64,000 nucleotides of DNA, from positions 62,001-126,000 of the forward strand of contig JAJDDY010000089.1 in NCBI GenBank assembly GCA_029260075.1, given 5' to 3'. The translations under genes were made by a program, and so were the position numbers. The stretch is from Phycisphaerae bacterium (GTDB lineage Bacteria; Planctomycetota; Phycisphaerae; UBA1845). The notes under the pieces are model-generated. The model did no database searches and was not told the DNA's origin. It saw only the letters and a list, made by a program, of their open reading frames with translations. Below, one piece after another: positions 12,307 through 56,239 of this stretch. Each line of letters begins with the position of its first letter. Position 1 is the first letter of the stretch.

Positions 12307-12385
12307 CGACGACTGTCCGGTTGAGCATCCCACGGAATGGTCACTTCGATATGCATCACTGGGCAACTGCGTGAGAAGCCTCTTG

Positions 12386-32039: not shown

Positions 32040-32131
32040 GCGTCCATCATAGCTGATCGGCGCGCACCGATACAGTCGGACCGCGGCGACGGGTGGCTAC
32101 GGTGTGCCTGACAGAATCGGCGGTCATTTAT

Positions 32132-32225: not shown

Positions 32226-32286
32226 ACAGGGCGTGCAGCCTTCAAACATTGTTGTACGACCCGCCTAATCTGTCACACACCCACGG

Positions 32287-37487: not shown

Positions 37488-37598
37488 CGTCGATTCTCCG
37501 ATGCGACGGGTTCTGTTGATGAACCAAAACGTCGGCAAATCGTCTTATGGTCATGTCAGCGGTCAGTTGACAGCTTGGGGGCCCATCTCTTTAGAGGT

Positions 37599-38483: not shown

Positions 38484-38530
38484 ACCTACCACACGAAATC
38501 TTAGCTATCAGCGAACAATCGTGACAAACA

Positions 38531-38729: not shown

Positions 38730-39866
38730 ATGGCCATGTTCCCGCCGAGATCGGCCACGTCGTTGGACCTGCACGAGGTTCGTTACGAAAAAAAAGGATG
38801 GGTCGCCCACATCGCGATCGATCGTCCCCACAACTACAACGCCTACAGCACGCCCGCTCTCACGGAGTTGGCGTCGGCTTTTCAGGACGCATCCTGGGAT
38901 GATCGGGTGGCGGTGGTCGTGTTCACCGGCGTCGGCGACCGCGCGTTTTGCACGGGCGGTGACGTCAAGGAATATCAGGAGTCCTACACCCAGAAGCCGC
39001 GCGACTACTGGAAGTACATGTCGTGCTTCAAGGCGTACATCGAGTCGATCACCAACTGCTCCAAGCCGGTGATCGCGCGACTGAATGGGATGGCTGTCGG
39101 CGGCGGAAACGAAAGTCAACTGGCGTGCGACCTTTCCGTCATGGGCGAACATGCGTTCATCGCGCAGGTCGGCACGAACGTCGGTTCCGTCGCGTGCGGC
39201 GGATCGACACAGTGGCTTCCTATTCACGTTGGTGATCGCAAGGCGAGGGGAATTCTCTTTCTCAACCAGCGGTACGGCGCGTTCACATCACTCGCGATGG
39301 GATTGGTGAACGTCGTCGCCCCAACAGTTCAAGGACCGGACGGTAGATTCGTCACGAAGTTCACCGGTGGTCGATCCTATCTTGCCGATTGGAACACGGA
39401 CCCGTGGGATCAACCTTTCGAGTCACGCGCCACGCCTGAACAAATCAAGAAGGCGCAAAAAGGTGTCGACGGGTTCTCGCTCGACTTCCGTTGCGTTGAC
39501 GAAGCCGTTGCCGAACTGTGCGAGCAGATCGTTCACAAGTTTCCGGAATGCACTAGATACACTAAGGCGCAGGTCAACTTTTGGAAGGACGCCGCTTGGC
39601 ATGCCACAGTGGGGCACGCGCGCGACTGGCTTTCCATCCACTATACAAGCCTCGAACCGCACGAGGGCATGACGGCGTTCGTCGAAAAGCGCAACGCTGA
39701 CTATGTCGGGATGCGCGAGCGCGCGGCCGACCCAACCGGATCGAGCGAGTTCCTCTGGGGCCCGTACGCCAACATGTGTGCGGAGTGCGGCGCTAAGGGG
39801 ATCCCTCGCGACTTCGAGTTCTGTGGCAAGTGCGGCGCGGCGCTAACGGCCACCGTAACCACCTGA
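38730..39866 (+). CDS. bamA: 6-oxocyclohex-1-ene-1-carbonyl-CoA hydrolase (BamA/Oah)
   Basis: 378 aa from the ATG at 38730 (AAGGAG eight bases upstream). The length matches BamA, and the crotonase-fold core carries GDRAFCTGGDVKEYQESY, NGMAVGGGNESQLACDLSV and AQVGTNVGSVACGG. BamA adds water twice to 6-oxocyclohex-1-ene-1-carbonyl-CoA and opens the ring to 3-hydroxypimeloyl-CoA; it is the diagnostic gene of the anaerobic benzoyl-CoA pathway. The last 40 residues hold a four-cysteine zinc-ribbon-like tail (CAECGAKG then CGKCGAAL). First gene of the 14-gene cluster, behind a strong predicted promoter. Confidence 0.9.
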   Translation: MAMFPPRSATSLDLHEVRYEKKGWVAHIAIDRPHNYNAYSTPALTELASAFQDASWDDRVAVVVFTGVGDRAFCTGGDVKEYQESYTQKPRDYWKYMSCFKAYIESITNCSKPVIARLNGMAVGGGNESQLACDLSVMGEHAFIAQVGTNVGSVACGGSTQWLPIHVGDRKARGILFLNQRYGAFTSLAMGLVNVVAPTVQGPDGRFVTKFTGGRSYLADWNTDPWDQPFESRATPEQIKKAQKGVDGFSLDFRCVDEAVAELCEQIVHKFPECTRYTKAQVNFWKDAAWHATVGHARDWLSIHYTSLEPHEGMTAFVEKRNADYVGMRERAADPTGSSEFLWGPYANMCAECGAKGIPRDFEFCGKCGAALTATVTT

Positions 39867-39888
39867 CGTGATCCGTAGGGAGCGGCGT

Positions 39889-40629
39889 ATGCCCTCAGTT
39901 CGACGAGCCTTGGTGACCGGCGGCGCTCGCGGAATCGGTCGTTGCATTGTGGAAACGCTGGCGCGCGACGGGTGCGATGTCTGCGTGTTCGACAGCAAAC
40001 TGCCGGACGATGCGGATCAGCTCAGTGCCGCGATCGAGTCTCGCGATCGCCGATCCATGATGCTGTCCGGGGACGTACGCGACGCTGCGGCTGTGGGTAA
40101 CGCCATCGAATCCGTCGTAGGGCGCTGGGGCGGGCTCGATATTCTCGTCAACAACGCCGGCATCGTGCGAGATCAAGTCAGTTGGAAGATGAGCGACGAA
40201 CAATGGCGCGACGTCATTGATGTCAATTTGACCGGGGCTTTTCATGCGTGTCGGGCTGCCATTCCCTGTATGCGCGAAGTTGGATGGGGCGCGATCGTGA
40301 ACCTTGCGAGCATCAACGGCATGCGCGGGAAGTTCGGTCAGTCGAACTACGCTGCGTCCAAAGCGGGCTTGATCGGGTTGACGAAGTCGCTGGCGAAGGA
40401 AGTCGCACGGTTTGGCATTACCGCCAACGCCGTAGCGCCGGGGCTGATCGAGACCGACATTGTGCGATCCATGTCGGATGAAGCACTCAAACAAGCGGTG
40501 GGCGAAGTTCTCTTGAACCGTCCGGGGCAGGTGGAAGACGTGGCTGAGGCGGTGTCGTTTCTTGCGGGCGATCGCGCCCGGTTCATCACCGGCGAGGTGC
40601 TACGCGTCGACGGCGGGCAATACATCTAG
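39889..40629 (+). CDS. SDR-family 3-hydroxyacyl-CoA dehydrogenase / oxidoreductase
   Basis: 246 aa from the ATG at 39889 (GGGAG upstream). Short-chain dehydrogenase with TGGARGIGR, NNAG, catalytic Ser in NLASINGMRG, YAASK, and the FabG-like C-terminal substrate loop (VAPGLIETDI; VDGGQYI). In this cluster it could oxidise 3-hydroxypimeloyl-CoA to 3-oxopimeloyl-CoA, the step after BamA, competing with the fused dehydrogenase at 49.2 kb. FabG-type enzymes are too general to exclude another 3-hydroxyacyl substrate. Confidence 0.85.
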   Translation: MPSVRRALVTGGARGIGRCIVETLARDGCDVCVFDSKLPDDADQLSAAIESRDRRSMMLSGDVRDAAAVGNAIESVVGRWGGLDILVNNAGIVRDQVSWKMSDEQWRDVIDVNLTGAFHACRAAIPCMREVGWGAIVNLASINGMRGKFGQSNYAASKAGLIGLTKSLAKEVARFGITANAVAPGLIETDIVRSMSDEALKQAVGEVLLNRPGQVEDVAEAVSFLAGDRARFITGEVLRVDGGQYI

Positions 40630-40642
40630 AGGTAAAGGTACG

Positions 40643-41413
40643 ATGAGCGCGTACGAACATTTCGACGTAAGCGTAGACGAAGGCATAGCCACGCTGACGA
40701 TGCAGCGTGAGCCGCTCAATGTGCTCCACAATCCGATGATGGCCGAGTTTAACTCGATTTTGGAAGCAACGCTTTCCGGATCAAACCTGGCTGCCGTTGT
40801 GATCCGGGCGACGGGTCGGGCGTTCAGCGCCGGGGTGGACGTCGGAGATCACGCGCCGGACCAAGTCGCCGAGATGATCCATCAATTCCACGGTATTTTC
40901 AGAAAACTGGCTTCGACTGATGCGTTGACCATCGCCGCAGTCCAGGGGGCGGCGCTCGGCGGCGGATGTGAGCTGGCGTGTTTTTGTGACATCGTATTGG
41001 CATCCGAAAGAGCGAAGTTCGGTCAACCGGAGGTTCAGGTCGGCGTATTTCCGCCGGTGGCGGCGTGCGTGTTTCCTGCACAGGTGGGCATCAAGAAGGC
41101 CATCGAGTTGAACGCGCTAGGCAAGACCATCGGCGCGGTGGAGGCTTATCGAATCGGTCTCGTCAATGAAGTCTTTCCCGTGGAGTCGTTTGAAGCAAGC
41201 GTAGACGAGTACCTAAGTGACATCCGCAAGCTGTCGCGTCCGGTCGTGCGTTTGTCGAAGCGGGCGACCTGTATGGTGTCGCGTGAACAGGTGCTCGCCC
41301 AATTGGATCGGACGGAAGCCCTATACCTCGACGAACTGATGAAGCTCGAAGACGCGAGCGAGGGAATCGCAGCCTTCATGGAAAAACGAAGCCCCAAATG
41401 GCGGCACGCATAA
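40643..41413 (+). CDS. dch: Cyclohexa-1,5-diene-1-carbonyl-CoA hydratase (Dch/BamR)
   Basis: 256 aa from the ATG at 40643 (AGAGGTAAAGG upstream). Crotonase fold with FSAGVDVGDHAPDQVAEMI, GAALGGGCELACFCDIVLA and FGQPEVQVGVFPPVAA; both catalytic glutamates (GGCEL and QPE) are present. The GVDVGDH signature and the C-terminal EGIAAFMEKRSPKW are typical of the dienoyl-CoA hydratases that add water to the benzoyl-CoA reductase product to give 6-hydroxycyclohex-1-ene-1-carbonyl-CoA. It sits between the SDR and Had genes, as in other benzoyl-CoA clusters. Confidence 0.88.
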   Translation: MSAYEHFDVSVDEGIATLTMQREPLNVLHNPMMAEFNSILEATLSGSNLAAVVIRATGRAFSAGVDVGDHAPDQVAEMIHQFHGIFRKLASTDALTIAAVQGAALGGGCELACFCDIVLASERAKFGQPEVQVGVFPPVAACVFPAQVGIKKAIELNALGKTIGAVEAYRIGLVNEVFPVESFEASVDEYLSDIRKLSRPVVRLSKRATCMVSREQVLAQLDRTEALYLDELMKLEDASEGIAAFMEKRSPKWRHA

Positions 41414-41436
41414 CGCGTCGCAAAGGATAATCAGCA

Positions 41437-42459
41437 ATGAAAGCGGTAGTTTTTCACGGCGGCGATACGGGATTGAAAATCGAAGACGTTCCGATGCCAA
41501 CGATCGGCGCGCACGAAATCCTCGTGAAAGTCGCGGCGTGCGGCGTGTGTCATACCGACCTGCACTACATCGAACATGGCGTACCGACGTTCAAGAAACC
41601 ACCCATCATTTTGGGGCACGAAGCGTCGGGTGTTGTCGAACGGGTCGGCGCTGACGTCAAGAACCTCACCGAGGGACAGCGCGTGCTCATCCCGGCGGTG
41701 TTGACTTGTGGTCAGTGCATGTTCTGCCGCATGGGGCGTGAGAATATCTGCAGCGACATGACCATGCTAGGCAACCACATCAATGGTGCCTACGCGGAGT
41801 ATGTGGCTGTTCCCGCTAAGGACGTACTGGACCTCCCTGAATCAATCCCGCTGAAAGAGGCGTCGATTATCGCGGACGCGATCTCGACTCCATACCACGC
41901 CGTCAAGAACCGTGCACAGGTTCGCCCCGGCGACAGCCTTGTGGTCTTCGGGTGCGGTGGCGTGGGGATGGGCGCGGTGCAAGTTGCGGTGGCCAGCGGC
42001 GCGTATGTCATCGCGGTTGACGTGAACGAACGCAAGTTGCAATGGGCGTCGGACTTTGGTGCGGCCAAGACCATCAACGCTTCGAAGGTTGAACGGGTCA
42101 GCAAGGAAGTCAAGAAACTCACGGGTGGCGGCGCGGATATTGCCATGGAAGTGATCGGCAACCCACGGACGATCGAAGAAGCTTTCGAGTGTGTCCGCGT
42201 CGGCGGTCGACTCTGCGTCGTCGGCTATACGCACGAGAAGATATCTGTGGTGGCGGGCAAGATCATGTTCAAGGAAATCGAGGTAGTCGGTTCCCTCGGG
42301 TGTCGACCGCTCGATTACAAGCCTTTGATTCGGATGGTGGAGTCCGGCGCGATCGACGTGAAGCGCCAGGTGACGCATCAGTTCCAACTGGAAGAGTTGG
42401 AAGAAGCTTTCGCCGTGATGAAGGAAGGTGTGTCGTTGCGATCCATCGTAACGCCATAG
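41437..42459 (+). CDS. had: 6-hydroxycyclohex-1-ene-1-carbonyl-CoA dehydrogenase (Had/BamQ)
   Basis: 340-aa zinc alcohol dehydrogenase. Catalytic zinc site CGVCHTDLHY and GHEASG; structural zinc site CGQCMFCRMGRENIC; NAD-binding GCGGVGMGAVQVA. LGNHINGAYAEYVAVPAKDV and IADAISTPYHAVKNR match the Had/BamQ subgroup rather than general alcohol dehydrogenases. It oxidises the hydratase product to 6-oxocyclohex-1-ene-1-carbonyl-CoA, the BamA substrate, with NAD. With BamA and Dch it completes the conversion of the dienoyl-CoA to the ring-opened product. Confidence 0.9.
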   Translation: MKAVVFHGGDTGLKIEDVPMPTIGAHEILVKVAACGVCHTDLHYIEHGVPTFKKPPIILGHEASGVVERVGADVKNLTEGQRVLIPAVLTCGQCMFCRMGRENICSDMTMLGNHINGAYAEYVAVPAKDVLDLPESIPLKEASIIADAISTPYHAVKNRAQVRPGDSLVVFGCGGVGMGAVQVAVASGAYVIAVDVNERKLQWASDFGAAKTINASKVERVSKEVKKLTGGGADIAMEVIGNPRTIEEAFECVRVGGRLCVVGYTHEKISVVAGKIMFKEIEVVGSLGCRPLDYKPLIRMVESGAIDVKRQVTHQFQLEELEEAFAVMKEGVSLRSIVTP

Positions 42460-42472
42460 TAGCGAGCTAAAC

Positions 42473-43717
42473 ATGAGCGCGACCGCCGCCAAACGAATCA
42501 AGATCAAGTCGCAAGAGCGTCTTGGTGCGCTCATGCGCGAGCACTTTCTCGATCTCGATGAGGCGGCGCGTGATCCACAGCGCCGCGTGGCGTGGTGTAC
42601 GAGTGTCGGTCCGTGCGAAATCCTTACAGCTATGGGGTTCGAGACGTATTTCCCTGAAAACCACGGGGCGCTACTCGGTGCGCGTCGCGTCAGTCACGAA
42701 CTCATTCCCCGGGCGGTGGCCATCGGATATTGCGCGGAGTCGTGCTCCTACATGACCAGTGACATCGGTTCGACACTGGCGGGCGTGAGTCCGCTCACCG
42801 AAGCGTTTGGCATCGACGGTCCGCCGAACCCGGATCTTCTTGTGTACAGCACGAACCAATGCCGCGAGGTACAGGATTGGTGGGGTTTCCACGGACGGCG
42901 CACCGATGCCGCGGTGATGGGTGTGTGTCCACCTTCACACTTGGGCGAAGTGACCCGCGAGCACGTCGCTTTCGTATCCGGCCTGCTCGAACGATTGGTC
43001 GAGAAAATCGAACATCGATTCGGCGCCACACTCGATCGCGATCGCCTCAAAGAAGTCGTAGCGCTCTCTAGCCGGGCAAGTGCCCTATGGCGTCAGGTGC
43101 TCGACACCGCTCGTGCGCGACCGGCTGCGCTCACGTTCTTCGACGGCGTGATCCACATGGCGCCGGTGATTCTGATGCGCGGTTCCCAGAAAGCGATAGA
43201 TTACTACGAGACGCTGCTTGCTGAGTTGAATCAACGGATCGCAGACGGCGTCGGCGGCATCCCCGAAGAGCGTTTTCGCATCTATTGGGAGGGCATGCCG
43301 ATCTGGCCCAAGGTTCGGGAGTTGGCGGAGAAGTTCTTTGACCTGCGCACAGTCGTGGCTGCGAGCACGTACTGCAATTCCTGGGCGTTCGACGAGTACG
43401 ACGGCGGCGATCCGATCGAGTGGATGGCGCGAACCAGCATCGAAATCTTCATCAATCGCGACGAGGTCAGCAAGCAGAAATTCCTCAGCGAAATGTTCAA
43501 TCGATTCGAGATCGACGGTGCGATTTTCCACAACGCGCGCACTTGCCCTAACAATACGAACTCCCGTTTCGGTATGGCCCAGCGCGTTCGCGATGAAATG
43601 GACATGCCGGTACTGGTGCTGGACGGCGACCTCAGCGACGTGCGGTTCTTCTCGACCGCACAAACCATGACCAACATTGAGGCGTTCATCGAACAGCTTG
43701 AGGAGTGCAAGCGATGA
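42473..43717 (+). CDS. 2-hydroxyacyl-CoA dehydratase D-component / BcrC-like protein with extra cysteines (DCCP-like)
   Basis: 414-aa member of the HgdB/BcrC superfamily (FeS component). C91 (CSYMTSDIGS), C130 (STNQCREV) and C358 (ARTCPNN) line up with the three cluster ligands seen in the BcrC-like protein at 51.8 kb. Additional cysteines occur at C42, C48, C87, C152 and C301. Six conserved ligands are characteristic of double-cubane cluster proteins, so this may be such a protein rather than a dehydratase, which needs two different D-subunits. It overlaps its own ATPase gene (ATGA). Substrate unknown; perhaps an accessory reductase for the aromatic pathway. Confidence 0.7.
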   Translation: MSATAAKRIKIKSQERLGALMREHFLDLDEAARDPQRRVAWCTSVGPCEILTAMGFETYFPENHGALLGARRVSHELIPRAVAIGYCAESCSYMTSDIGSTLAGVSPLTEAFGIDGPPNPDLLVYSTNQCREVQDWWGFHGRRTDAAVMGVCPPSHLGEVTREHVAFVSGLLERLVEKIEHRFGATLDRDRLKEVVALSSRASALWRQVLDTARARPAALTFFDGVIHMAPVILMRGSQKAIDYYETLLAELNQRIADGVGGIPEERFRIYWEGMPIWPKVRELAEKFFDLRTVVAASTYCNSWAFDEYDGGDPIEWMARTSIEIFINRDEVSKQKFLSEMFNRFEIDGAIFHNARTCPNNTNSRFGMAQRVRDEMDMPVLVLDGDLSDVRFFSTAQTMTNIEAFIEQLEECKR

Positions 43718-44532
43718 GCGGTGCGCTCTACGTCGGCGTTGACCTCGGATCATCCGCGACGAAGTGCGTCGTGCTCGATGAGACGACGACGTTGGTGGGC
43801 TATCACGTGGTTAAGTCGGGTTTCGATTACGTCGAGGCGGGCCAAGTTGCACTGCACCATGCCCTGGCCAAGGCAGAGGGGGAGCCTGCGGACGTTGCAT
43901 ACTGCGTGTCCACCGGATACGGACGCGAGCGCGTCGCGCTGGCGAACCGTCGTGTTACCGAAATCACCTGTCATGCGCGCGGCGCGCGCGAGTGGTACCC
44001 CGCGGTGCGGAACATTATCGACGTGGGTGGTCAGGACACGAAGGTCATTCGTCTGAGCGAAGGCGGGCGTATGGCTGACTACCGGATGAACGCCAAGTGT
44101 GCCGCCGGCACGGGGACGTTTCTCGAATCGACGGCGCACAAGCTGGACTTGTCGCTTCAGCAATTGGACGAACTGGCGATGACGTCGACCGAGCCGGCTG
44201 TGGTCAACAGCTACTGCACGGTGTTCGCCGGAACGGAAGTGATCGAGCGCATCAAAGAGGGTCAGCCGGCAAGGGACATTGCGATGGGACTGTTTCGTTC
44301 GATCGCTACGCGCGTGTCGGAGATGCTGGCTGTTCGTGATGGTGCTGTCGCGGTCACAGGAGGGGTCGCAGCCCACTGTCGCGCGTTGGTGCGAGCGCTT
44401 GAAGAAGTTCTGGAGACTGAGGTTTTGCTGCCCCCGATGCCGCAATACGCCGGCGCTTTTGGTGCGGCGCTGCTTGCTACTGAAACGAACGATGCCGAAA
44501 GGAGCTCAACCAGCCATGTTGCGCACCGGTGA
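43714..44532 (+). CDS. Activator ATPase (BcrA/BadF/HgdC family) cognate to the upstream D-component
   Basis: 272 aa, ATG at 43714. ASKHA-fold ATPase: VGVDLGSSATKCVVL at the N-terminus, VGGQDTKVIRL, and the intersubunit [4Fe-4S] cysteines in NAKCAAGTGTFLE and NSYCTVFAGTEV. A second nucleotide motif GGVAAHCRAL is near the C-terminus. It would hydrolyse ATP to push low-potential electrons into the preceding FeS protein. Together they form a free-standing D-component/activator pair, separate from the four-subunit benzoyl-CoA reductase 8 kb downstream, which has its own two ATPase subunits. Confidence 0.85.
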   Translation: MSGALYVGVDLGSSATKCVVLDETTTLVGYHVVKSGFDYVEAGQVALHHALAKAEGEPADVAYCVSTGYGRERVALANRRVTEITCHARGAREWYPAVRNIIDVGGQDTKVIRLSEGGRMADYRMNAKCAAGTGTFLESTAHKLDLSLQQLDELAMTSTEPAVVNSYCTVFAGTEVIERIKEGQPARDIAMGLFRSIATRVSEMLAVRDGAVAVTGGVAAHCRALVRALEEVLETEVLLPPMPQYAGAFGAALLATETNDAERSSTSHVAHR

Positions 44533-47500
44533 TCTAGGGGTCCATCCGCCCGGCGCCTTGGGCGTCGCGTTCTTTGTCCATGCGCGCGCGGAGTGTTTCG
44601 TGGGACGCGGCGGTGACGGCATTACTCAAACACTCAAGGACGCGGGAATACTCAATCTTCTGGACGATGGTCGGCAGCGGGCGATTGATCTTGACGGCAA
44701 CATCTTGGCCAATCTTCTCGAAGCCGACGCGTTGGATCGTATGCCCGAGCTTCTTTTTGTCTGTTGTAACCCAAGCCAATTGGGTCTTTTTACCGGGGAG
44801 CTGGTGCGTTTCCTTGAGAATCTGGCCGGGCGCGGGCGTTTGGCTTCGATCGAAGAGATTCGCCAGCGCGTACCGATTCTGTTCGTGCTGCCCAACGGCG
44901 TGCTCATGGAGCAAACCGTCTCAACCTACGAAGATCAAATCAACGAATCGATGCTCATGGAACGCCTTCCGGGCGTGGACGAGTCGATGGTGACGGCGCT
45001 GATCGATCGGGTCGTACGAGGAATATCATTACAGGCTGGCGGACGTCGAGGGATGGGGCGTGACACGGTGTACCTTCTTCAGAAGAAGGGCTCAGTGGTG
45101 TTTGCGGGCGGCGGCGACGGCGAGCGGCAACGCGTCGAGACGATCCTTGCAGCGCACGACTACCCGTTTCACCACGCGAAGGGCATGTCCGGTACGCGTA
45201 TCGAATTCGACAAGGCCATGATATCCATCGTGCTCAACGTCGGTGGGTTGATTCACACTGTCAAACCAAGCGGCGAGCTGATCGATCTTCGTATGGGCGA
45301 TCTTTGCAAGGATTCGACCAAAGCGGATTTCGTCGATCGCATCGGACGCGCCGTGTTTGATGTGGGACAGGCTGTCGGTGCCTATCCGAACGATGTGACC
45401 TATGAAGAAATTTGGGCGAAGCATCGTGCCATTATCTTGTCCTTCGCCGGACACATGACCAGCTCAGTCAAGACCCTGCGCGACACGCTGGCCAACGGTC
45501 TAAATAGTGTCGCGCTGTTCTCAAATGAGGAATGGATTCTTACGCCGCTGGGTCGCTATGCCGCCAAAGCCGGTCTCGCCGAGGCGGAATCGCTGTTCAA
45601 ATCACTCAAGCGTGAGGTTCAAGCATCTATGGCGCGAGCGATTCGCTATCGCGATCACGCCGACAACGGTGGACAACCCGGAGCTATGGATATGGAGCTA
45701 ACCGCTCAGCGCAACATCAGTGTGGAACTATTCGACGCGGGCTCCGACCATGTAACAGTGGTTGGCACGATGCTCGACAATGAGCACCTGATCAAGCTCG
45801 ACGTCAAGATTTACCTGCCCGACGAACAGATTGTCAGCAGTCGGTTGAACATGATTCGTGTGCCGTTTCCCGTCTGTCGAGAAGTGGAGGGTGCGGCGGA
45901 GCGTCTTGTGGGTCTGCGGATCGAGCGTGGGGTGCTAGCGGAAATCACTCGCCGCGTAGGTGGTCGCGTGGGGTGTTCGCACATCAGGGAACTGGCTACG
46001 AACATTGTTTACTTCGTGGCGTCCGATCTGGTGCGTCGGCGTGCCGGCTTGGATCCAGCGAGCCCGGGCTTCGCACAGAAATCGCCCGACGAACGATTCG
46101 TGCTGACCAAAGATCTTCTGCGCGATACATGCCTAGCGTATTGCCAAACGACGTCGCAAGGCTTGGACGAGCAAATCGGTATCAAGCGCGTGGGCGAAGT
46201 CTATGAAAGCAAGATCCCGCTGGGCGACTATGAACCGTCGCTGGGTGTCGTTCTGCGACAACGTGCCGAGCGTTGGGGCGACAAGCCATTCGTGCGCACG
46301 CGTAAGGGCGATGACGACGTAACGATATCGTGGTCGCAGTTCTCCACCGCCGTGCGCACGATCGCACGAAAATTGATCGATATCGGCGTGCGCCCCGGCG
46401 ACCGCATAGGGATGATCTCGGAAAACCGATCGGAGATGTTCGAAGCCGATCTGGCGATTATGGCCATCGGCGCCGTAACCGTACCCGTGTTCGCCGGATA
46501 TCCTCGACGTCAAGTCGCGTATGTTCTAGGTCACGCCAAGCCGGCGTTCGTCATTGTCTCTGGAATGCACCAGCTAAGAAAGATTGAGGCCGATCGTCAC
46601 CCCTGGGTCAAGAAATATCTCGTGATGGACCACGATGCTGATTGCGAGAACTGGGGTGCGGTCCCCTTCTCGGAGTTGCTCGAACCACCCGATACAAGCG
46701 AAACGCAACTCGACGAGAGAATCAACGCGGTGCAACCGGACGAAATGTGTCTCATCATGTATACGTCTGGAACCACGGGACCACCCAAGGGCGTCCGCCT
46801 TTCTCACCGCAACATCATTTCACAACAACAGGCCGTGGGACTCATCTGGGACGTCTCGGACAAAGACGTCTTAATGAGCTACCTGCCTTGGCACCACAGC
46901 TTCGGCGGCATCTTCGAGCGATTCCTCGCGTTGTTTCACGGTTGCGAACTTTGCCTCGACGATTCTTGCGGACGTAACCTCGACCGCATGATCGCCAACT
47001 GGAAGGCGTTCGATCCGACACTGTTCCTGAGCGTGCCGCGTGTGCATGACATGGTCGTGTCCGGAAGCCGTACACGTCCGGACGTCGATCGCATCGTTTT
47101 CGGCGGGCGGCTTCGCTTCGTGTTCACCGCCGGAGCTTCGCTGCCCGCACCGGTGGCGGCCATCTATCGTGAGCATGGCATTCCCGTCCTCGAAGGCTGG
47201 GGCCTGACCGAAACCGCCCCGAGTGTCACCCTTACGACACTGGATCATTCGTGGCGAAGCGGCTTCGTCGGGTTCCCGATCCCGGGCGTTTCGATTCGCA
47301 TCGATGACGGTCAGGAAATCCTCGTCCGCGGCCCCAACGTGATGAGCGGCTACCTCGACGACGAAGAGGCGACGGCGTACGTGCTCACCGCAGACGGTTG
47401 GTTCAAGACCGGTGACCTCGGTGAGTTTTCCAAGAACGGTCTTCGCGTGCTTGGGCGCAAGGACGGCGCCTTCAAGCTTACCACGGGTGAAAAGGTACAC

Positions 47501-47923: not shown

Positions 47924-49174
47924 ATGGTGACCACAAACGGACATCCAAGAATCGTAATCGTCGACGGCGCGCGAACGCCGATCGGAGTCAAGTGTGGCGC
48001 GCTTCGGCACTTTGCGCCCGAAGACTTGGCTACGTTTGCGTGCGAAGAGGCCATCCGCCGCAGCGGCGTCGCCCGCGAGCAAATTGATACGGCGGTCGGT
48101 GCCAATGTCTATCAGTACACGGCGCCGGGCGTGCAGGACATCTACTTCCCCCGCAACGTCGGGTTGCGCTGTCGACTGAGGGTGGAAACGCCTGCCCTCA
48201 TGGTGCAGCGCATTTGCGGCTCGGGTTTGCAAACGGTCGTCAGCGCCATGCAACAACTCGCCGTGCCAGACGTCATGGACGATTCGAAGACGGCGCTCTG
48301 CTTTGGCGGCGAAGTCATGTCGCGCACGCCGAAGGTGCTTCGTGCTCCGCGCAGCGCTACCAACTTCTGGGAATTCGAAGAAGGTGGCGCCGTCGAAGAC
48401 ACGCTGCTCGCCGGGCTGAATCACGACCTGGCCAATACGAGCATGATGCTCACCGCTGATGAATACGGTCATCAAACCGGCGTGACACGTAACGAATGCG
48501 ACGCCTTCGCGGCCGAATCGCACGAGCGCGCTCGGGCGGCCTATCGCAACAGTTATCTCAACGGCGGCGATGCCTTGCGTGGAATGTTTGCGATCGACGC
48601 CACGGATTTGAATGGGCAACCCGTACACCTAGCGCGGGATGAATGTACCCGTAACACGTCTGTCGAAGCGCTGGCCAAGCTGCGCGGCATTACACCCAAC
48701 AATCTTGTGTCTGCCGGAAACGCCAGCGAACTCAGCGACGGGGCGGCGGCGGTCGTGCTCGCCAATCGCGACGTCGCGAGGCAACACGGGTGGTCCACGC
48801 AATTCGAAATCGTCGGCTATGGCGTTTGTGGTGTCGATCCGCGCATCATGGGTAGTGGCCCGGTACCGTCAATCAACAAGGCCCTCGGTCGCGCCGGGCT
48901 TGAGCAACGCGACATCGCCCTTTGGGAAATCAACGAAGCCTTCGCCGCGCAATATCTAGGCGTGGAGAAACAACTCGGTCTTCCGCGAGAACACGTCAAC
49001 ATCAACGGAGGCGCCATCGCACTGGGTCATCCGCTGGCCGCAACCGGCGTGCGATTGATCGTCGACCTGATGTACGAAATGAAACGCCGCGACGTCGAAC
49101 ACGGCTGTGCTTCGGCCTGCATCGGTGGTGGTCAGGGCATGGCCGTCATCCTACGAAACACGGAATCGACATAA
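47924..49174 (+). CDS. Thiolase (acetyl-CoA acyltransferase)
   Basis: 416 aa starting immediately after the ligase stop. The active site is complete: nucleophilic Cys in VQRICGSGLQTVV, His in INGGAIALGHPLAATG and the second Cys in ASACIGGGQGMAV. In this pathway it would cleave 3-oxopimeloyl-CoA into glutaryl-CoA and acetyl-CoA after ring opening. The subfamily (acetoacetyl- versus longer-chain thiolase) cannot be fixed from motifs alone. Confidence 0.92.
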   Translation: MVTTNGHPRIVIVDGARTPIGVKCGALRHFAPEDLATFACEEAIRRSGVAREQIDTAVGANVYQYTAPGVQDIYFPRNVGLRCRLRVETPALMVQRICGSGLQTVVSAMQQLAVPDVMDDSKTALCFGGEVMSRTPKVLRAPRSATNFWEFEEGGAVEDTLLAGLNHDLANTSMMLTADEYGHQTGVTRNECDAFAAESHERARAAYRNSYLNGGDALRGMFAIDATDLNGQPVHLARDECTRNTSVEALAKLRGITPNNLVSAGNASELSDGAAAVVLANRDVARQHGWSTQFEIVGYGVCGVDPRIMGSGPVPSINKALGRAGLEQRDIALWEINEAFAAQYLGVEKQLGLPREHVNINGGAIALGHPLAATGVRLIVDLMYEMKRRDVEHGCASACIGGGQGMAVILRNTEST

Positions 49175-49202
49175 ACCGTTGGCCAGGTAATGGAATCGTC
49201 CA

Positions 49203-51704: not shown

Positions 51705-51759
51705 CAGCGCTCGAATGTATTGAGTACACGAATGTCTCCGTAGACGGTTGGAGAGACCG

Positions 51760-52926
51760 ATGAGCGAACTTGTTTTTCCAGAATGGCGCGGTACGCCGCT
51801 GGACGAGATACTCTACGCATGTCGCGAGCTTGTAGAGGATCCGACGTTTCCAACCGTCAAGCGCTGGCGCGAGGCTGGCGGGAAAGTCTGCGGTCATTTC
51901 CAGGTCTACTTCCCGGAAGAAATCGCTCACGCCGCCGGCATGCTCCCCGTGAAGTTGCGCGGCGTGCCGGTCGATCCAACACACGCGGATTCGCACTTCG
52001 GTTCGTATCTGTGTTCTATCCTAAAGTCGTCACTCGAAGTCGTGCTGAGCGGCGAGCTTCAGTTGGATATGTTTGTGTCGCATCCCATCTGCGATGCGGC
52101 GCGCAATCTCGCAGCCATCTGGGGACGCAACTTCGACTACCCCTGCCAGATTCTCTATCTGCCGCAGAACGCAAACTCATCACACAGCGTCGCATACCTG
52201 GCCGACGAGTACAACCGCCTCAGGCGCACGGTCGAGGAGGTGACCGGTGCGGAGGTTTCCGAGGCGGCGATACAACGCTCTGTCGCCGTGTTCAATGAGA
52301 ACCGCCGGTTGCTACGCGAGCTGTATGAAATCAAACGCACCACACCCTGGCTCGTAGCTGCCGAGGACGCCTACAGTCTTGTTTCCGTAGGAGCCATGAT
52401 CCCGCGCGAGGAGCACAACGAGCTTCTCCGCGCGGTGCTTCCGCAGTTGACCGAGCGCGACGCCAAGCAGCAGGACCGCATCCGCGTCGTGTTCGAGGGG
52501 GGATTCTGCGAACAACCGCCACTCGATATGATTCGCATGCTGGGACGAACGTGCTACCTCGTAGACGATGATCTGCTGATCGGGCTGCGCTGGATTGTCG
52601 AAGATGTTCCGACCGACGGCGATCCCGTCGCGAATCTTGCCCACGCCTACGTGCATCGATCCTCGTACAGCCCCGTCCAACATGACGACCGTAAGCTCAA
52701 GGAAGAAATGCTGCTGAAGCGCATGAAGCGTTGCCACGCCGACGCCGCCATCATCACAGCCGCCAAAATGTGTGAGCCGGGTTTGGAAGAACAAGTGGCC
52801 TATACGAACGCGCTGGATGAACAGAAGATCCCATACTTCGTAAGTGAGTTCGAAGAGAACATGACATCGTTCGACCATCTGGAATTGCAGGTCGAAACGT
52901 TTATGGAAAACCTGCTCTTCGCTTGA
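51760..52926 (+). CDS. bcrC: Benzoyl-CoA reductase, gamma subunit (BcrC/BzdN)
   Basis: 388 aa from the ATG at 51760 (GGAGAG upstream). D-component family protein; the three cluster cysteines are in SYLCSILKSS, HPICDAARNL and AAKMCEPGLEEQ. GKVCGHFQVYFPEEIAHAAG matches the family N-terminal motif. The length and the neighbours bcrB and two ATPases show it is the gamma subunit of ATP-dependent (class I) benzoyl-CoA reductase, which holds part of the catalytic [4Fe-4S] site and dearomatises benzoyl-CoA to cyclohexa-1,5-diene-1-carbonyl-CoA. Confidence 0.92.
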   Translation: MSELVFPEWRGTPLDEILYACRELVEDPTFPTVKRWREAGGKVCGHFQVYFPEEIAHAAGMLPVKLRGVPVDPTHADSHFGSYLCSILKSSLEVVLSGELQLDMFVSHPICDAARNLAAIWGRNFDYPCQILYLPQNANSSHSVAYLADEYNRLRRTVEEVTGAEVSEAAIQRSVAVFNENRRLLRELYEIKRTTPWLVAAEDAYSLVSVGAMIPREEHNELLRAVLPQLTERDAKQQDRIRVVFEGGFCEQPPLDMIRMLGRTCYLVDDDLLIGLRWIVEDVPTDGDPVANLAHAYVHRSSYSPVQHDDRKLKEEMLLKRMKRCHADAAIITAAKMCEPGLEEQVAYTNALDEQKIPYFVSEFEENMTSFDHLELQVETFMENLLFA

Positions 52927-52943
52927 GCATAGCGAGTATTCCT

Positions 52944-54239
52944 ATGAAAACTGTAGAAAAAGAAAACGGGTTGGTCGGACGTGGTAACCGCGACGGAGCC
53001 CAGCTCTTCCGCGATTGGTTTTCGTCGCTATCCGAAGCGGCCGACGAAGGTCGACGGGCTGCGTATGTCTTCGTGATGGGGAGTCTCAACGAGATTCTCA
53101 TGTGTTTCGACCTTCCTGTCGTTTTTCCTGAGATCAACTCCCTGCAAACCGCCGTGCGCCGTGTCGCGCACGAGTACTTGGACGAGGCGGAAGATTACGG
53201 CTATTCACCCGACATCTGCGGCTACGTCAAGGCAGACGTCGCGCTCCAACTTCGCGGCGGCGCCCACCCCATGGGTAACATTCCCAAACCGAAAATCGCC
53301 GTGGCCACCAATGCGTGCAACACCTACATCAAATGGGCCGAGATATGGCAGCGTATGTACGACGTCCCCGTATTCGTCATGGACGTCCCAGGGTCGCGAG
53401 AGGCCGGCGATTCGACACAGCGCGGTGAGCGCGATTTCGAGAACGACCGCCGTTACGTCGAGGCGCAGCTCAAGGAACTAATCGCAATCTGCGAAAAGGT
53501 CACCGGCCGTAAGTTCGATGTGGACCGGCTGCGTGAGGTGCTGGGCTACACCAACGAAATGAACGTCGGATGGAAGAGGGTTCTTGAGCTCAATAAAGCC
53601 CGCCCCGCGCCGTTCAATGCACTGACAGACGGAACAATCTACCTCGGTGTGGCCAATGGATTTCGCGGAACCAAGATAGGGGGACGCTACTTCACGGAAT
53701 TGGTTGAGGAGATGGAATACAAGGTTGAGCACCACATCGGGTCGTTGACGGAGGAGGAGTACAGGTTGATCTTTGTCGGCGTACCTTGCTATCCGATCTT
53801 CCGCCGCTTCAACGAACTGTTCACCGACTGGCAAGGCACGTTTATCAATTCCACCTACTTGTGGTTCGCATCGGGCGGAGCCAATAGAGGGTTCGAGTAC
53901 GACATCAACAGGCCCATCGAAAGCTTGGCGGAGGGCGTGCTCATTAGCGTACGTGACGCCATGGACAGCATGTTCTACCAGGAGAAGGCGCTTGGCGGCA
54001 TGATCGACGACTACCACGTCGACGGGATCATTTACCATCCGATCAAGAGTTGCCGCACGGTTTCGACAGGGTTGGCTGATAGCCGGCGATATATGGCGGA
54101 AAAATACGACATCCCCAGTCTCTTCGTTGAATCGGACATGATGGATAGGCGGGTCATTTCGGAGGCACAAATGAAGAACCGGATCGACGCATTCTTCGAA
54201 GGCCTGGATTCACGCCGACGACGCAGCGGCGTTCATTAG
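52944..54239 (+). CDS. bcrB: Benzoyl-CoA reductase, beta subunit (BcrB/BzdO)
   Basis: 431 aa from the ATG at 52944 (a TTG overlapping the upstream stop is an alternative start). Second D-component subunit: [50 protein letters not shown] and [13 protein letters not shown]. Cys residues in NACNTY and KSCRTV are likely cluster ligands. It pairs with BcrC to form the substrate-binding heterodimer. The length is like BcrB/BzdO (about 430-450 aa). Confidence 0.92.
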
Positions 54240-54252
54240 AGAAAGGTACACA

Positions 54253-55071
54253 ATGGCTTATGCAGCGGGCGTTGATGTGGGTTCGACGCAAACAAAAGCG
54301 GTCATCATCGACGAGAAGCGCCGGATCGTCGGCCGCTCATTGATCGACACCGGAGCCAACGTCGTCCTTGCGGCGGAGAACGCCCACGCCGGCGCGCTGA
54401 AAGACGCCGGTCTGCGCGAGATGGAAGTCGAGTACGTCGTGGGCACCGGCTACGGGCGCTATCGAGTCACGTTCGGAAACACACAGGTTACGGAAATTAG
54501 CTGCCACGGACGCGGCGCCGTACACATGTTCCCCGGCACGCGCACGGTCGTAGATATGGGCGGGCAGGACACCAAGGCTATTCGCGTCGGGTCGTCCGGT
54601 GAAATCGTAGACTTCTGTATGAATGACAAGTGTGCTGCGGGTACGGGCCGTTTTCTCGGAGCCGCCGCGGCAGCTCTCGAAATTCCGCTCAGCGATTTGG
54701 GCTCCCGGGCGCTGCAGTTCCAGAAACCCGTGCGCATTAGCACGACCTGCACCGTGTTCGCCGAGTCCGAGGTGCTGTCGTGGCTCGGGAAGGGTAAGAA
54801 AATCGAGGATATTCTCTGGGGCGTGCATCAGTCGATCGCCAGCCGATCGGCAGGCCTGCTTCGCCGCGTAGGGATTGAAGACGAGGTCACGTTCACCGGT
54901 GGAGTGACCCGAAACATTGCGATGATCCGAGCGCTTGAAGAGAAGGTTGAACGGCAACTGAACGTCAGTGACGACTCCCATTACATGGGCGCTTTGGGGG
55001 CAGCGCTCTTTGCGCTCGATCACATCGTGTCCAGCAGAAGCCCACGCGAAGCGGTGGAGACTAGAGAATGA
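54253..55071 (+). CDS. bzdP: Benzoyl-CoA reductase ATPase subunit (BzdP-like)
   Basis: 272-aa ASKHA ATPase with [27 protein letters not shown] and cluster cysteines C127 ([13 protein letters not shown]) and C166 ([11 protein letters not shown]). It shares a bridging [4Fe-4S] cluster with its partner and couples ATP hydrolysis to electron transfer into BcrBC. Both ATPase subunits here are about 275 aa. In Thauera BcrA is much longer, so the enzyme resembles the Azoarcus (bzd) type; P or Q naming follows gene order only. Confidence 0.88.
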
Positions 55072-55913
55072 CGATCACGGCCGGTATCGACGTAGGATCC
55101 ACATACATCAAGGCGATCCTTCTGGACGAACGTACGCAGATACTCAGTCGCAATATCAGACCGACCGGATTCAAGCTGGCCGAGTCCGCACAATCCGCAT
55201 TCCAGGATTGTCTGAAGGAAGCCGGTCTTGAAGAGGACGATGTCCGCTATGTCGTAGCCACAGGAATCGGTCGCCACCAAGTCCAGTTCAAAGATATCCA
55301 TGTGACCGACCTCACCGCAACCGCGCGCGGCGCCGGGTTCCTATTCCCCGGGACACGCACCGTGCTCGACGTGGGTGGGCAGACCATGAAAGCGAGCCGC
55401 GTCGACGACAAGTTCCAGGTGGTGTCGTTTCGACTGAATGATAAATGTGCCGCCGGAACTGGCGCATTTCTGGAAAAGACCGCCCGATACATGGGGTTCA
55501 CGACGGAAGAAATCGGGCCGTTGGTACTCACTTCCAAGGAACCGGTTCCCATTTCCGGAGTGTGCGCCGTGTTCGCCGAATCGGAAGTCATCAACCATCT
55601 TTCCCTTGGCACGTCGCCATCGGACATTATGCAGGGGGCGATCGAATCACTGACCGGCCGCTCCGTGCAATTAATGAAACGGGTCAAGGGTGAAGCCGAG
55701 TACACACTCATCGGCGGCATTCTACGCTTCGAGACAATGGCGCGCGCCGTGCGCGAGCAACTGAAGAGCGAGGTCAACGTGCCGGAACCGGGAACGGTTC
55801 AGTATGTGGCCGCCCTCGGAGCGGCTATTCTGGGACACCGACGACTTGACATGCTCAAACGAGATTGCGTCGCGGATACGGCGAGCGTAGTACAGAGTCA
55901 AGGACGAGGATGA
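55068..55913 (+). CDS. bzdQ: Benzoyl-CoA reductase ATPase subunit (BzdQ-like)
   Basis: 281-aa ASKHA ATPase overlapping the previous gene by 4 nt (ATGA). [15 protein letters not shown], cysteines C127 ([14 protein letters not shown]) and C166 ([12 protein letters not shown]) are intact, but the second nucleotide motif reads [10 protein letters not shown], with Thr-Met where its partner has Asp-Thr. That difference distinguishes the two ATPases and fits an asymmetric heterodimer. It completes the four-subunit class I benzoyl-CoA reductase (order gamma-beta-ATPase-ATPase, as in bcrCBAD and bzdNOPQ). Confidence 0.88.
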
Positions 55914-56239
55914 TCGTGGCGTCGGACTTTGTCATTCTCGCGTCGGGCTCGAACCCAGCGCCACGCACCGGAGTGGAAGTCGAGGACGAGCGACTGGCCG
56001 CAGAGGGTTGGGTGCGCCGACACACGGCGGATGCGAATCGCGTCGCGGAGTGGCTGGAGTTATACCGGTCCCTTGGATTCGAAGTGTTCACACGGGAACT
56101 AACAATCGCGGACCATGATCCGCAATGCCGGGACTGCGTCATAAGCGCCTGCACGTCGTATGTTCTGATCTATACACGGAAATCCGCTCGTCAACCCGAC
56201 GGCGAAAGTCACAATCAACGCAACCCGCCGATCGACTAA
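55910..56239 (+). CDS. Small cysteine-containing protein at the end of the benzoyl-CoA reductase operon
   Basis: 109 aa starting at the ATG that overlaps the ATPase stop (ATGA, 55910), so it is translated with the reductase. Not recognised. Features: WLELYRSLGFEVFTREL in the middle and a cysteine cluster CRDCVISACTSYVLIYTR (three cysteines) near residue 70-88, then a basic hydrophilic tail. It has no ferredoxin CxxCxxC set and no transmembrane segment. A metal-binding assembly or regulatory factor for the reductase is a guess from position only. Confidence 0.65.
   Translation: MIVASDFVILASGSNPAPRTGVEVEDERLAAEGWVRRHTADANRVAEWLELYRSLGFEVFTRELTIADHDPQCRDCVISACTSYVLIYTRKSARQPDGESHNQRNPPID

Follow-up and report, generated by a model that had tools for sequence, protein, structure and literature searches.

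A planctomycete operon joining a class I aryl-CoA reductase of the MBR type to a dehydratase-like gene set

The MBR subclass of class I aryl-CoA reductases is known from a few proteobacterial degraders of substituted benzoates. Thauera chlorobenzoica and Azoarcus sp. CIB figure in published accounts (PMC11971306, PMC4424350), and the latter account places MbdR, of the Azoarcus mbd pathway, in the TetR family.

The window examined here, a stretch of DNA of 64,000 nucleotides, carries fourteen co-directional genes (g01 to g14), all present on the plus strand by a six-frame listing and a codon-usage gene call, as a preliminary description had proposed (Table 1). Its central claim of a four-subunit class I reductase together with Oah-, Dch- and Had-type enzymes in a planctomycete is borne out by gene calls, protein families and an rpoB tree. 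We give a probability of roughly 0.75 to the reading that these genes serve a planctomycete, probably a facultative anaerobe that respires nitrate, as a catabolic operon for breaking down aromatic acyl-CoAs reductively. What the sequences establish is family, clade, catalytic residues, gene order and host lineage; every reaction, every substrate and expression itself we infer.

Table 1. Features of the locus. Positions are those of the window; coordinates of g01 to g14 include stop codons; paired scores are bits obtained/curated cut-off.
Feature	Position	Strand	Basis
MobA-like, XdhC-like, radical SAM (HemN-like) genes	30490..33630	-	Pfam
Molybdenum enzyme, [2Fe-2S] and MoCo domains fused	33685..36609	-	TIGR03194 877/994.6; XdhA 595
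FAD subunit of molybdenum enzyme	36606..37538	-	XdhB 204/310; HBCR beta 112/404.6
TetR regulator (FadR-like), divergent from operon	37821..38492	-	Pfam TetR_N and TetR_C_24; NCBIfam FadR-like 70/200
g01-g14, run of fourteen genes	38730-56239	+	Six-frame listing and codon-usage gene call agree
g01, Oah/BamA-like ring hydrolase, C-terminal zinc-ribbon-like tail (CxxCG...CGxCG)	38730..39866	+	TIGR03200 215/464
g02, SDR dehydrogenase (FabG-like)	39913..40629	+	NCBIfam, Pfam
g03, Dch-like cyclohexadienoyl-CoA hydratase	40643..41413	+	TIGR03189 best, 165/292
g04, Had-like 6-hydroxycyclohex-1-enecarbonyl-CoA dehydrogenase	41437..42459	+	TIGR03201 best, 254/339
g05, HGD-D protein, HadB-like (R)-2-hydroxyacyl-CoA dehydratase alpha	42473..43717	+	PF06050
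g06, acyl-CoA dehydratase activase (BcrAD_BadFG ATPase)	43714..44532	+	TIGR00241 226/125; PF01869
g07, 1135-aa fusion: predicted ketopantoate-reductase-fold domain (aa 1-388), DUF2889, AMP-forming CoA ligase	44516..47923	+	Pfam; AlphaFold with Foldseek/VIA
g08, acyl-CoA thiolase	47924..49174	+	TIGR01930 336/241
g09, 3-hydroxyacyl-CoA dehydrogenase fused to weak enoyl-CoA hydratase domain, 833 aa	49203..51704	+	PF02737, PF00378
g10, BcrC/MbdN subunit, MBR type	51760..52926	+	PDB 9g87_B 549 bits
g11, BcrB/MbdO catalytic subunit, MBR type	52944..54239	+	PDB 9g87_A 551 bits
g12, BcrA-like ATPase subunit	54253..55071	+	TIGR00241 252/125; TIGR02259 225/578
g13, BcrD-like ATPase subunit	55068..55913	+	TIGR00241 210/125; TIGR02261 162/313
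g14, small conserved protein	55910..56239	+	Motif GW.RR...ELY..LGFEV...C.DC...YTRK

Two HGD-D and two ATPase subunits are encoded together in g10 to g13, the arrangement expected of class I. The protein encoded by g10 is 59.2% identical to MbdN of 3-methylbenzoyl-CoA reductase (PDB 9g87). It falls with MbdN inside a 91-row MBR (methyl-BCR) clade in a quick tree of BcrC sequences (SH-aLRT 100), and inside a 20-row MBR clade in a second tree of 41 hand-chosen rows (100/100); the clade excludes the BCR, BZD and HAD types. Tree evidence covers BcrC, and the type of BcrB is assigned by score and motif. By alignment, g11 keeps the three active-site cluster cysteines, the Glu column and the motif KSCRTVSTG as in MbdO; cysteine numbering follows BzdO (PMC11971306), and the Glu column is read from MbdO and HadB because the aligned BzdO pieces begin at residue 75, leaving Glu65 outside. 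Judged by sequence, g10 to g13 encode a class I aryl-CoA reductase of the MBR/Mbd type rather than the Thauera type.

The preliminary description had allowed that BcrB and BcrC might instead group with 2-hydroxyacyl-CoA dehydratases. The scores far favor class I aryl-CoA reductases, as does the tree for BcrC: g10 and g11 reach 549 and 551 bits against MbdN and MbdO versus 142 and 127 bits against HadC and HadB. These scores, the adjoining Oah/Dch/Had-like genes and the respiratory genes of the genome make it very improbable that the locus is a fermentative 2-hydroxyacyl-CoA dehydratase system for amino-acid fermentation that carries out no ring reduction, even though g05 is HadB-like.

For Oah, Dch, Had, BcrC and BcrB, the best NCBIfam match is the family expected for the benzoyl-CoA pathway. 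For g12 and g13, the general family TIGR00241 ranks first and the BcrA and BcrD models second. All seven of these diagnostic proteins lie far under the curated equivalog cut-offs; among the canonical BCR-type models (TIGR02259-02261, TIGR02263), BcrB scores 223/487 and BcrC 264/421 bits, and BcrA and BcrD also miss (Table 1). Because the weakest of the seven E-values are 1.5e-48 (Dch) and 1.4e-47 (BcrD), and because gene order is kept in other genomes, chance matches are excluded. Thus the earlier claim of a benzoyl-CoA pathway is right at the level of families, whereas canonical (Thauera-type) orthology is not established. The Oah, Dch and Had families are present as described, but the ring-opening set is divergent, and the operon further encodes a HadB-like subunit, an activase and a KPR-fold/DUF2889/ligase fusion. 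Since every ring-pathway protein falls under its equivalog cut-off, benzoyl-CoA may not be the actual substrate. Benzoate breakdown by the canonical route, just as Thauera or Rhodopseudomonas carries it out, would account for finding the same families within one operon. It is nonetheless improbable given these cut-offs, the extra genes g05 to g07 and the position of BcrC, which lies apart from the clade formed by sequences over the TIGR02263 cut-off (e.g., L117, 720 bits), a placement that already weakens it.

The ring hydrolase g01 is 34% identical to the canonical Oah of locus L040 and is without the N-terminal insert of that protein. A CxxC...CxxC tail occurs in all 18 Oah proteins of the window type (window included) versus none of the 14 canonical ones, although Pfam ribbon models match the g01 tail under cut-off. 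By sequence comparison, then, g01 belongs to a separate Oah branch with a zinc-ribbon-like tail. The small protein g14 matched no family in a Pfam search; its motif was drawn from an alignment with 17 homologues, and of 57 evaluable MBR loci, 33 have a homologue that BLAST places immediately 3' of bcrD. None of g01 to g14 was recognized as an acyl-CoA dehydrogenase gene.

The MBR reductase type occurs at 80 further loci, spread over uncultured members of about 12 bacterial phyla. Portions of the window's gene run, reaching as far as the bcr genes, recur in seven named Planctomycetota loci; in two loci (L037, L101), no g08 turned up between g07 and g09. In genome G706, of the same class, g01 to g13 are co-linear on a 130-kb contig with the TetR, FAD and molybdenum genes upstream, and the class I reductase encoded in this operon is a different one, which suggests that the reductase slot is exchangeable. 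Genome G050 has g07, Dch, SDR and molybdenum genes, with no BcrC match at E 1e-30.

The host genome is 96.9% complete, and its estimated contamination is 3.45%. In the rpoB tree it groups with cluster-bearing MAGs named as Planctomycetota; rpoB sits on contig C20 rather than on cluster contig C88, which means that the tree assigns a position to the bin and not to the cluster contig. A misbinned or misassembled contig of proteobacterial source could be reconciled with that separation and with the contamination estimate. It is strongly disfavored, indeed scarcely credible, given the rpoB grouping, the operon with another reductase in G706, the operon parts in the seven Planctomycetota loci and a g05-g07 run that recurs only as a distant arrangement in L060 and L096 among 73 other named loci. 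The misassembly envisaged in the preliminary description is not borne out; the cluster is genuine and its planctomycete origin holds. The proposed extension of ring reduction to planctomycetes stands, but the reductase type reaches well beyond them.

The canonical benzoyl-CoA pathway is not known to include genes such as g05 to g07, which the preliminary description had not singled out. They bring the HGD-D proteins and the activases of the operon to three each and add the three-part fusion protein. The g05 product scores 150 bits against PDB 3o3m_A and 95 bits against MbdO, and it retains three cluster cysteines and the Glu column by alignment. A HadBC-type system comprises alpha, beta and activase; only alpha (g05) and activase (g06) are present here. 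No beta partner was found, the HGD-D genes found in the whole genome being g05, g10 and g11 only, and 96.9% completeness leaves slight room for an absent beta-subunit gene.

The g07 fusion is encoded from end to end in five MAGs of Planctomycetota (60-65%). Its first 388 residues are predicted, from AlphaFold models with pLDDT of 56-57, to adopt the ketopantoate-reductase (KPR)/D-mandelate dehydrogenase family fold. The top ten Foldseek matches are all KPR (E 7e-6 to 3e-3, probability 1.00, TM 0.26-0.32 on the query), and VIA gives Z of 12.5-15.9 for the top 27 rows and 10.8 for the next. For the N-terminal part alone, Z reaches 14.7, with a small lead of KPR over mannitol-phosphate dehydrogenases (11.8 versus 11.5 at the boundary). 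Sequence methods found nothing in this part: ApbA domains are absent, and no Pfam family matched at E up to 5. As we read the alignment, the KPR Lys and NG motif are kept, and one catalytic Glu of KPR is without a clear counterpart. In L060 (Fidelibacterota) and L096 (titled Parcubacteria), HadB-like, ligase-like and stand-alone KPR-family genes follow the MBR reductase.

Upstream, the molybdenum enzyme is closest to 4-hydroxybenzoyl-CoA reductase (HBCR) alpha yet under the curated cut-off; a counterpart gene accompanies the cluster in G706 (68%) and a portion of the cluster in G050 (72%). The Cys-rich insert of HBCR beta holds an extra [4Fe-4S] cluster. In alignments, this insert is absent from the FAD subunits of the window and L060 and present in those of L077, L092 and L073. 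The MobA-like, XdhC-like and radical SAM genes are possibly molybdenum-cofactor accessories of the molybdenum and FAD genes. L047 and L101 also have XdhC and MobA close to the cluster, L047 with radical SAM as well; none of the three was found within the available stretches of L036, L037, L038, L041, L058 and L059. The TetR gene has the same position in G706 (46%) and adjoins the FAD and molybdenum genes in G050 (63%).

This regulator, as in mbd, together with a reductase nearest 3-methylbenzoyl-CoA reductase and off-canonical Oah and Dch, would suit a pathway resembling mbd that handles benzoates with methyl or other substituents. In such a pathway, the g07 ligase would activate the acid, the reductase and divergent Oah/Dch/Had would process the substituted ring, and g05, g06 and the KPR-fold domain would serve another step. 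We regard this as unlikely, if worth serious consideration. ABC transporter genes like mbdB1-5 were not identified among g01 to g14. Oah proteins beside MBR-type reductases divide into 14 of canonical and 18 of window type, and because the reductase adjoins an over-cut-off Oah in L040 (572/464 bits) and HBCR-like genes in L077, a methyl substrate does not follow from the MBR type.

As for lifestyle, the window contig encodes NarG, NarH and NarI over cut-off, and the host genome has COX1-family genes and a 2-oxoacid:acceptor oxidoreductase alpha subunit (666/483 bits). Among the planctomycete carriers tested, only two, G326 and the window genome, have NarG over cut-off. Heme-copper oxidase family proteins occur in 34 of 36 carrier genomes tested; G299, which carries L041, gave no COX1 match.

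Under our reading of reductive aromatic acyl-CoA degradation, reduced ferredoxin would supply electrons to g10 to g13, and the BcrA/BcrD dimer would raise them with ATP. With g10 as electron relay, the aryl-CoA ring would be reduced at the g11 [4Fe-4S] site. The products of g03, g04 and g01 would then hydrate, oxidize and hydrolyze the ring to a hydroxypimelyl-CoA-type product for beta-oxidation by g09 and g08. Tentatively, and with less than even confidence, we take g05 to g07 to suggest entry from amino-acid-like precursors: the g07 KPR-fold domain and ligase would convert arylpyruvate to aryllactyl-CoA, g05 and g06 would dehydrate this to cinnamoyl-CoA, and g09 and g08 would trim the cinnamoyl-CoA to benzoyl-CoA, with a para-hydroxyl possibly removed by the linked molybdenum enzyme. 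That all of this forms one complete and hitherto undescribed route, in a single operon, by which arylpyruvates (phenylalanine/tyrosine type) reach ring cleavage is a more doubtful proposal. It would unite (R)-aryllactyl-CoA formation by g07, a single-subunit g05 that borrows g10 as electron partner to yield cinnamoyl-CoA, beta-oxidation to benzoyl-CoA or, through the molybdenum enzyme, to its dehydroxylated form, the MBR reductase, the zinc-ribbon hydrolase and an exchangeable reductase slot.

New here are the proposed dehydratase-alpha/activase/fusion front end, the linked HBCR-like molybdenum enzyme and the co-linear operon of G706 in which the class I reductase differs. Surveys relying on the curated cut-offs of the NCBIfam bcr and oah models would overlook the window cluster. 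Because the MBR type spans about 12 phyla and heme-copper oxidases are so frequent in its carriers, ATP-driven ring reduction may reach far outside the usual lineages. With a 2-hydroxyacyl-CoA dehydratase subunit tied to a ring reductase, access to benzoyl-CoA by way of cinnamoyl-CoA can be tested directly, and differing reductases in otherwise co-linear operons are a natural experiment on the determinants of substrate range.

Among known systems, mbd of Azoarcus/Aromatoleum sp. CIB shares with the window an MBR-type class I reductase (g10 59% identity, g11 551 bits), a TetR regulator and ring-cleavage and lower-pathway genes inside the reductase operon (PMC4424350). The window operon differs in host phylum, in its fused KPR/DUF2889/ligase, HadB-like subunit with activase and linked molybdenum enzyme, and probably in its zinc-ribbon Oah branch. 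Thauera aromatica Bcr/Dch/Had/Oah correspond in reaction type by family, but the seven window proteins are under curated cut-offs and BcrC lies in another clade. As for HadBC/FldBC (PDB 3o3m), g05 resembles HadB and g06 an activase, whereas the window genome has no HadC-like partner found, a ring reductase in the operon and respiratory genes in the host. Ketopantoate reductase and D-mandelate dehydrogenase share the predicted fold, Lys and NG motif of the g07 N-terminal part, which is without detectable sequence similarity to them and continues into DUF2889 and a CoA ligase. Finally, HcrABC resembles the window molybdenum enzyme, whose alpha part scores best against TIGR03194; the window enzyme differs in being under cut-off, in its [2Fe-2S] domain fused to alpha and in an FAD subunit free of the Cys-rich insert.

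Both a listing of all six frames and gene calling by codon usage recover the fourteen co-directional genes of the preliminary description (g01 to g14), in which g05/g06, g06/g07, g12/g13 and g13/g14 overlap and g07 and g08 abut. The window corresponds to bases 62001-126000 of contig C88 (163,653 bases), in a genome of 4.92 Mb and 93 contigs that is estimated to be 96.9% complete and 3.45% contaminated. All families named earlier for a benzoyl-CoA pathway are present, but Oah (g01), Dch (g03), Had (g04) and the four reductase subunits (BcrC, BcrB, BcrA and BcrD, g10-g13) fall below the curated cut-offs. These missed cut-offs, together with the clade placement of BcrC, make a Thauera-type pathway unlikely.

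Three types of class I enzyme, BCR, MBR (the methyl-BCR or Mbd type) and BZD, are distinguished in the excerpted text of PMC11971306. Among PDB sequences, the best match of g10 is MbdN of 3-methylbenzoyl-CoA reductase (549 bits, then HadC at 142 and BzdN at 105), to which it is 59.2% identical, versus 28.4% for HadC and 27.4% for BzdN. A BcrC tree with 125 rows, built by a quick method with SH-aLRT support only and carrying a long-branch warning, places the window protein and MbdN within a 91-row clade with a support of 100; the BZD type and the proteins that pass the canonical BcrC model (at loci L117, 720 bits, and L025, 475 bits; cut-off 421) form clades apart from it. When 40 of those 125 rows were picked by hand and joined by the sequence of genome G706, a careful tree of the resulting 41 returned the window/MbdN clade at 100/100. 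By trees and identity, BcrC groups with MbdN and not with 2-hydroxyacyl-CoA dehydratases. The trees are of BcrC; for BcrB (g11) the same distinction is drawn by score, with 551 bits to its best PDB sequence match, MbdO, versus 127 to HadB and 97 to BzdO.

In alignments, g11 keeps the three Cys that ligate the active-site cluster of BzdO (residues from the excerpt of PMC11971306). The Glu column is also kept, its position being inferred via MbdO and HadB; the BzdO sequence used begins at residue 75. The position of BzdO His131 is occupied by Tyr in g11 and by Phe in MbdO, and the third-Cys motif reads KSCRTVSTG in g11 and MbdO and KSCNSFSAG in the canonical type. A plasmid search for named Bcr references gave 23 records with a best identity of 31% and was set aside, and a family-level search for betaproteobacterial mbd clusters around genome G342 covered one genome only.

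Scanning genome contigs with g10 returned 205 relatives, the best 80 of which are 65-78% identical to it. By NCBI ranks and tree labels, these best 80 of 205 include Planctomycetota, Pseudomonadota, Gemmatimonadota, Acidobacteriota, Chloroflexota, Bdellovibrionota, Fidelibacterota, Zixiibacteriota, Actinomycetota, Eiseniibacteriota, Calditrichota and Myxococcota, these being MAG labels of which single ones may be misbinned; locus L096, titled Parcubacteria, groups with Fidelibacterota. No cultured strain is named in the record titles of the best 80 of the 205. A g10 match of at least 62% occurs in 9 of the 294 genomes sampled from the window's phylum, counting its own, and any match at E 1e-30 in 77 of the 294. 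In the class of genome G297, 11 of 369 sampled genomes match at E 1e-30, with identity above 40% in G297 alone. The literature matches listed, consisting of titles and abstract beginnings with subscription journals largely uncovered, hold no description of an MBR-type reductase in Planctomycetota; excerpts of PMC8329499, PMC12869995 and PMC10116835 assign BCR genes to other groups. One Gemmatimonadota MAG (L083) has a BZD-type reductase (BzdN 490 bits, cut-off 454) beside an MBR-type one.

The run towards the bcr genes is partly kept in seven of the 80 named loci, all in Planctomycetota, and its extent there is limited by contig or locus ends. It begins at g04 or earlier in L036, L041, L047 and L101, at g06 in L037, at the ligase end of g07 in L059 and at g08 in L038. 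Two pieces represent g09 in L041 and L101; searches of the named loci did not find g08 in L037 or L101, or g14 in L037, L041 or L059. An eighth Planctomycetota locus, L058, has the bcr genes only, among the genes looked for. Among related genomes, a counterpart of the cluster is in G706, of the window genome's class and another family, where the Mo enzyme, FAD subunit, TetR gene and g01-g09 are co-linear with the window at 46-77% identity. Its reductase differs from the window's (BcrC 39%, BcrB 42%, BcrA 63% and BcrD 41% identical), its BcrB motif is KSCRLFSAG, and g14 was not found at this operon. The G706 BcrC forms a clade (96/98) with six sequences, one of them long-branched, that come from other genomes in this phylum. 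Because this operon is otherwise co-linear, the reductase type can differ while the rest stays, either through exchange of the reductase or through a very old divergence.

Mixed sets occur elsewhere: L178 (G244) combines a KSCRLFSAG-type reductase with window-type Oah (53%) and Had (48%), and L180 (G207) has a further reductase variant with a canonical-type Oah (61% to that of L040). In genome G050, g07 and the Mo genes are present but no BcrC match was obtained at E 1e-30, so parts of the cluster can occur apart, or this genome (90%) is incomplete. Genomes of the window's phylum also hold, at L171, L175-L178, L015, L017-L019, L021 and L029, class I reductases of one more clade, which stands apart from BCR, MBR and BZD in the BcrC tree, with KSCRLFSAG in those members whose BcrB motif was checked; two more motif variants are KSCRAFSMG (L179) and KSCRSFSVG (L180).

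The planctomycete host proposed at the outset is borne out by a marker gene. In an rpoB tree (22 rows, from matches in 27 of 30 genomes; rows G212, G034 and G178 are wrong-frame ORFs and were disregarded), the window genome forms a group with the L047 and L059 MAGs at 99/100. This group joins L038, L101 and L037 at 84/99; all of these are Planctomycetota with the whole or part of the cluster. The L036 MAG, named Planctomycetota, falls with G127, of the same class, outside the window's group; the L041 MAG gave fragments and the L058 MAG no match, and neither is in the tree. The rpoB placement, the seven Planctomycetota loci and the co-linear operon in G706 make a proteobacterial origin of the cluster very unlikely.

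Coordinates of the cluster and of other features in the window, its genome and other loci
Feature	Location	Coordinates	Strand	Remarks
UbiD-family decarboxylase	window	18293-19981	+	~19 kb upstream of cluster
Two serine/threonine kinases, WD40-like (PD40) repeats	window	20582-26124	-	tandem
Cluster g01-g14	window	38730-56239	+	
Small uncharacterised protein g14	window	55910-56239		directly after bcrD; two invariant Cys (homologue alignment)
Alternative complex III: ActD, NrfD-like, MoCo/4Fe-4S fusion, cytochrome c	window	56782-63526	-	3' of cluster, opposite strand; one protein without family beside these genes
NarG, NarH, NarI; two NarK-like genes	contig C88	~126.2-136.3 kb		begin ~8 kb past cluster
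Very long ORF, two BcrAD_BadFG ATPase domains	L162 (G000:C48)	9377-13486		elsewhere in window genome
BZD-type beside MBR-type reductase	L083	2716-6843 and 9989-14121		
Further reductase clade	L171 (G706:C39)	66.5-71 kb		
Stand-alone homologue of g07 KPR-fold part	L168 (G283)	9218-10390		
Hemerythrin-domain protein	L077	8709-9272	-	Pfam match; adjoins MBR reductase
Hemerythrin-domain family	L036	14506-15066		

The large gene upstream of the cluster on the opposite strand is nearest to the alpha subunit of 4-hydroxybenzoyl-CoA reductase (HBCR; 877 bits, cut-off 994.6). A xanthine dehydrogenase is a candidate alternative from sequence comparison: the FAD subunit matches that enzyme more strongly than HBCR, but the alpha part gives XdhA 595 bits against 877. 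The Mo enzyme is linked to the cluster in G706 and to part of it in G050. In both L047 and L101, XdhC and MobA lie 3' of the reductase, and L047 also has a radical SAM gene; none of the three was found in the examined stretches of the six other Planctomycetota loci. The FAD subunit is without the Cys-rich insert present in L077, L092 and L073, and HBCR-like genes in L077 (Acidimicrobiales) and L092 (titled Microthrix) adjoin canonical-type Oah, Dch-like and Had-like genes.

The COX1 family also takes in nitric-oxide reductases. A match over its cut-off occurs in 34 of 36 genomes (35 reached through loci hand-picked from the 80, plus the window's), the two without being G299 (L041, Planctomycetota) and G323 (L096). 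NarG exceeds its cut-off in 7 of 22 genomes (21 of those 35, plus the window's), namely the window's, G326 (L101, Planctomycetota) and five not titled Planctomycetota, and fragments of 525-1042 bits occur in three more. On the window's contig, NarG, NarH and NarI are each over cut-off and the NarK-like genes below. A possible source of reduced ferredoxin is a 2-oxoacid:acceptor oxidoreductase, whose alpha subunit scores over cut-off in the genome. The hemerythrin-domain family, seen in nine loci, could be oxygen-related where it adjoins an MBR reductase.

Oah-like proteins of two kinds occur with MBR-type reductases: among called proteins above 180 bits in the 80 named loci and the window, 18 (window included) are nearer g01 and 14 nearer the protein of L040, whose 572 bits exceed the Oah model's cut-off of 464. 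A C-terminal CxxC...CxxC tail is found in 18/18 of the former and 0/14 of the latter, one of the 14 being a fragment. BLAST found g14 in 33 of 57 evaluable loci; in 7 of the other 24 a loose motif scan gave a possible copy. It has no Pfam family, and the Pfam match of one homologue (E 0.22) was ignored as chance.

The genes ahead of the thiolase (g08) and the 3-hydroxyacyl-CoA dehydrogenase fusion (g09) suggest how benzoyl-CoA might be supplied. An HGD-D protein nearest HadB, g05 keeps the three cluster Cys and the Glu column in alignment, and g06 is an activase. The genome search found three HGD-D genes, all in the cluster, so no HadC-like partner for g05 was found. The g07 fusion is conserved along its length in five other MAGs. 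Of 392 genomes of the phylum, five, counting the window's own, have its N-terminal part, which belongs to a long ORF in both G706 and G050 and to a short one in G283 and G724. The last two are near-complete genomes in which a free-standing gene encodes a homologue (29%) of the KPR-fold part (KPR, ketopantoate reductase); in G283 it adjoins an ACT-domain protein, with no aromatic cluster in the 20 kb examined.

This N-terminal part has no Pfam match. Its profile against PDB sequences and phmmer with the KPR proteins of L060 and L096 gave nothing meaningful, and profile-profile comparison with those proteins gave nothing. Modelled by AlphaFold from six sequences (pLDDT 55.9 and 57.4), the N-terminal part matches KPR and D-mandelate dehydrogenases above other folds. 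The Foldseek top 10 for the predicted structure have TM 0.26-0.32 on the query, and VIA on the model gives Z 12.5-15.9 for KPR-type proteins and 10.8 for the next kind; for the modelled N-terminal part alone, 25 rows have Z 11.8-14.7, mannitol-1-phosphate dehydrogenase 11.5 and one more KPR 10.4. In our reading of the alignment, a Lys at a KPR-like position and an NG motif are kept.

L060 and L096 each have, 3' of an MBR reductase, genes for a HadB-like protein (32% and 29% identical to g05), for a ligase-like protein and for a KPR-family protein that stands alone (in L060, TIGR00745 178 bits, cut-off 141; the L096 protein is 52% identical to it). (R)-2-Hydroxyacids are formed from 2-oxoacids by reductases of the KPR family, and their CoA thioesters are dehydrated by HadBC-type enzymes. 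Together, the fold, these gene sets and the two reactions suggest that KPR-type reduction and HadB-type dehydration would convert a 2-oxoacid to a 2-enoyl-CoA, and that g09 and g08 would then carry an arylpyruvate to benzoyl-CoA. We give this predicted front end, g05-g09, a probability of about 0.35. A route from 2-oxo-3-phenylpropanoate through cinnamoyl-CoA to benzoyl-CoA appears, as a hypothetical proposal for benzene degradation, in the excerpted text of PMC13416013.
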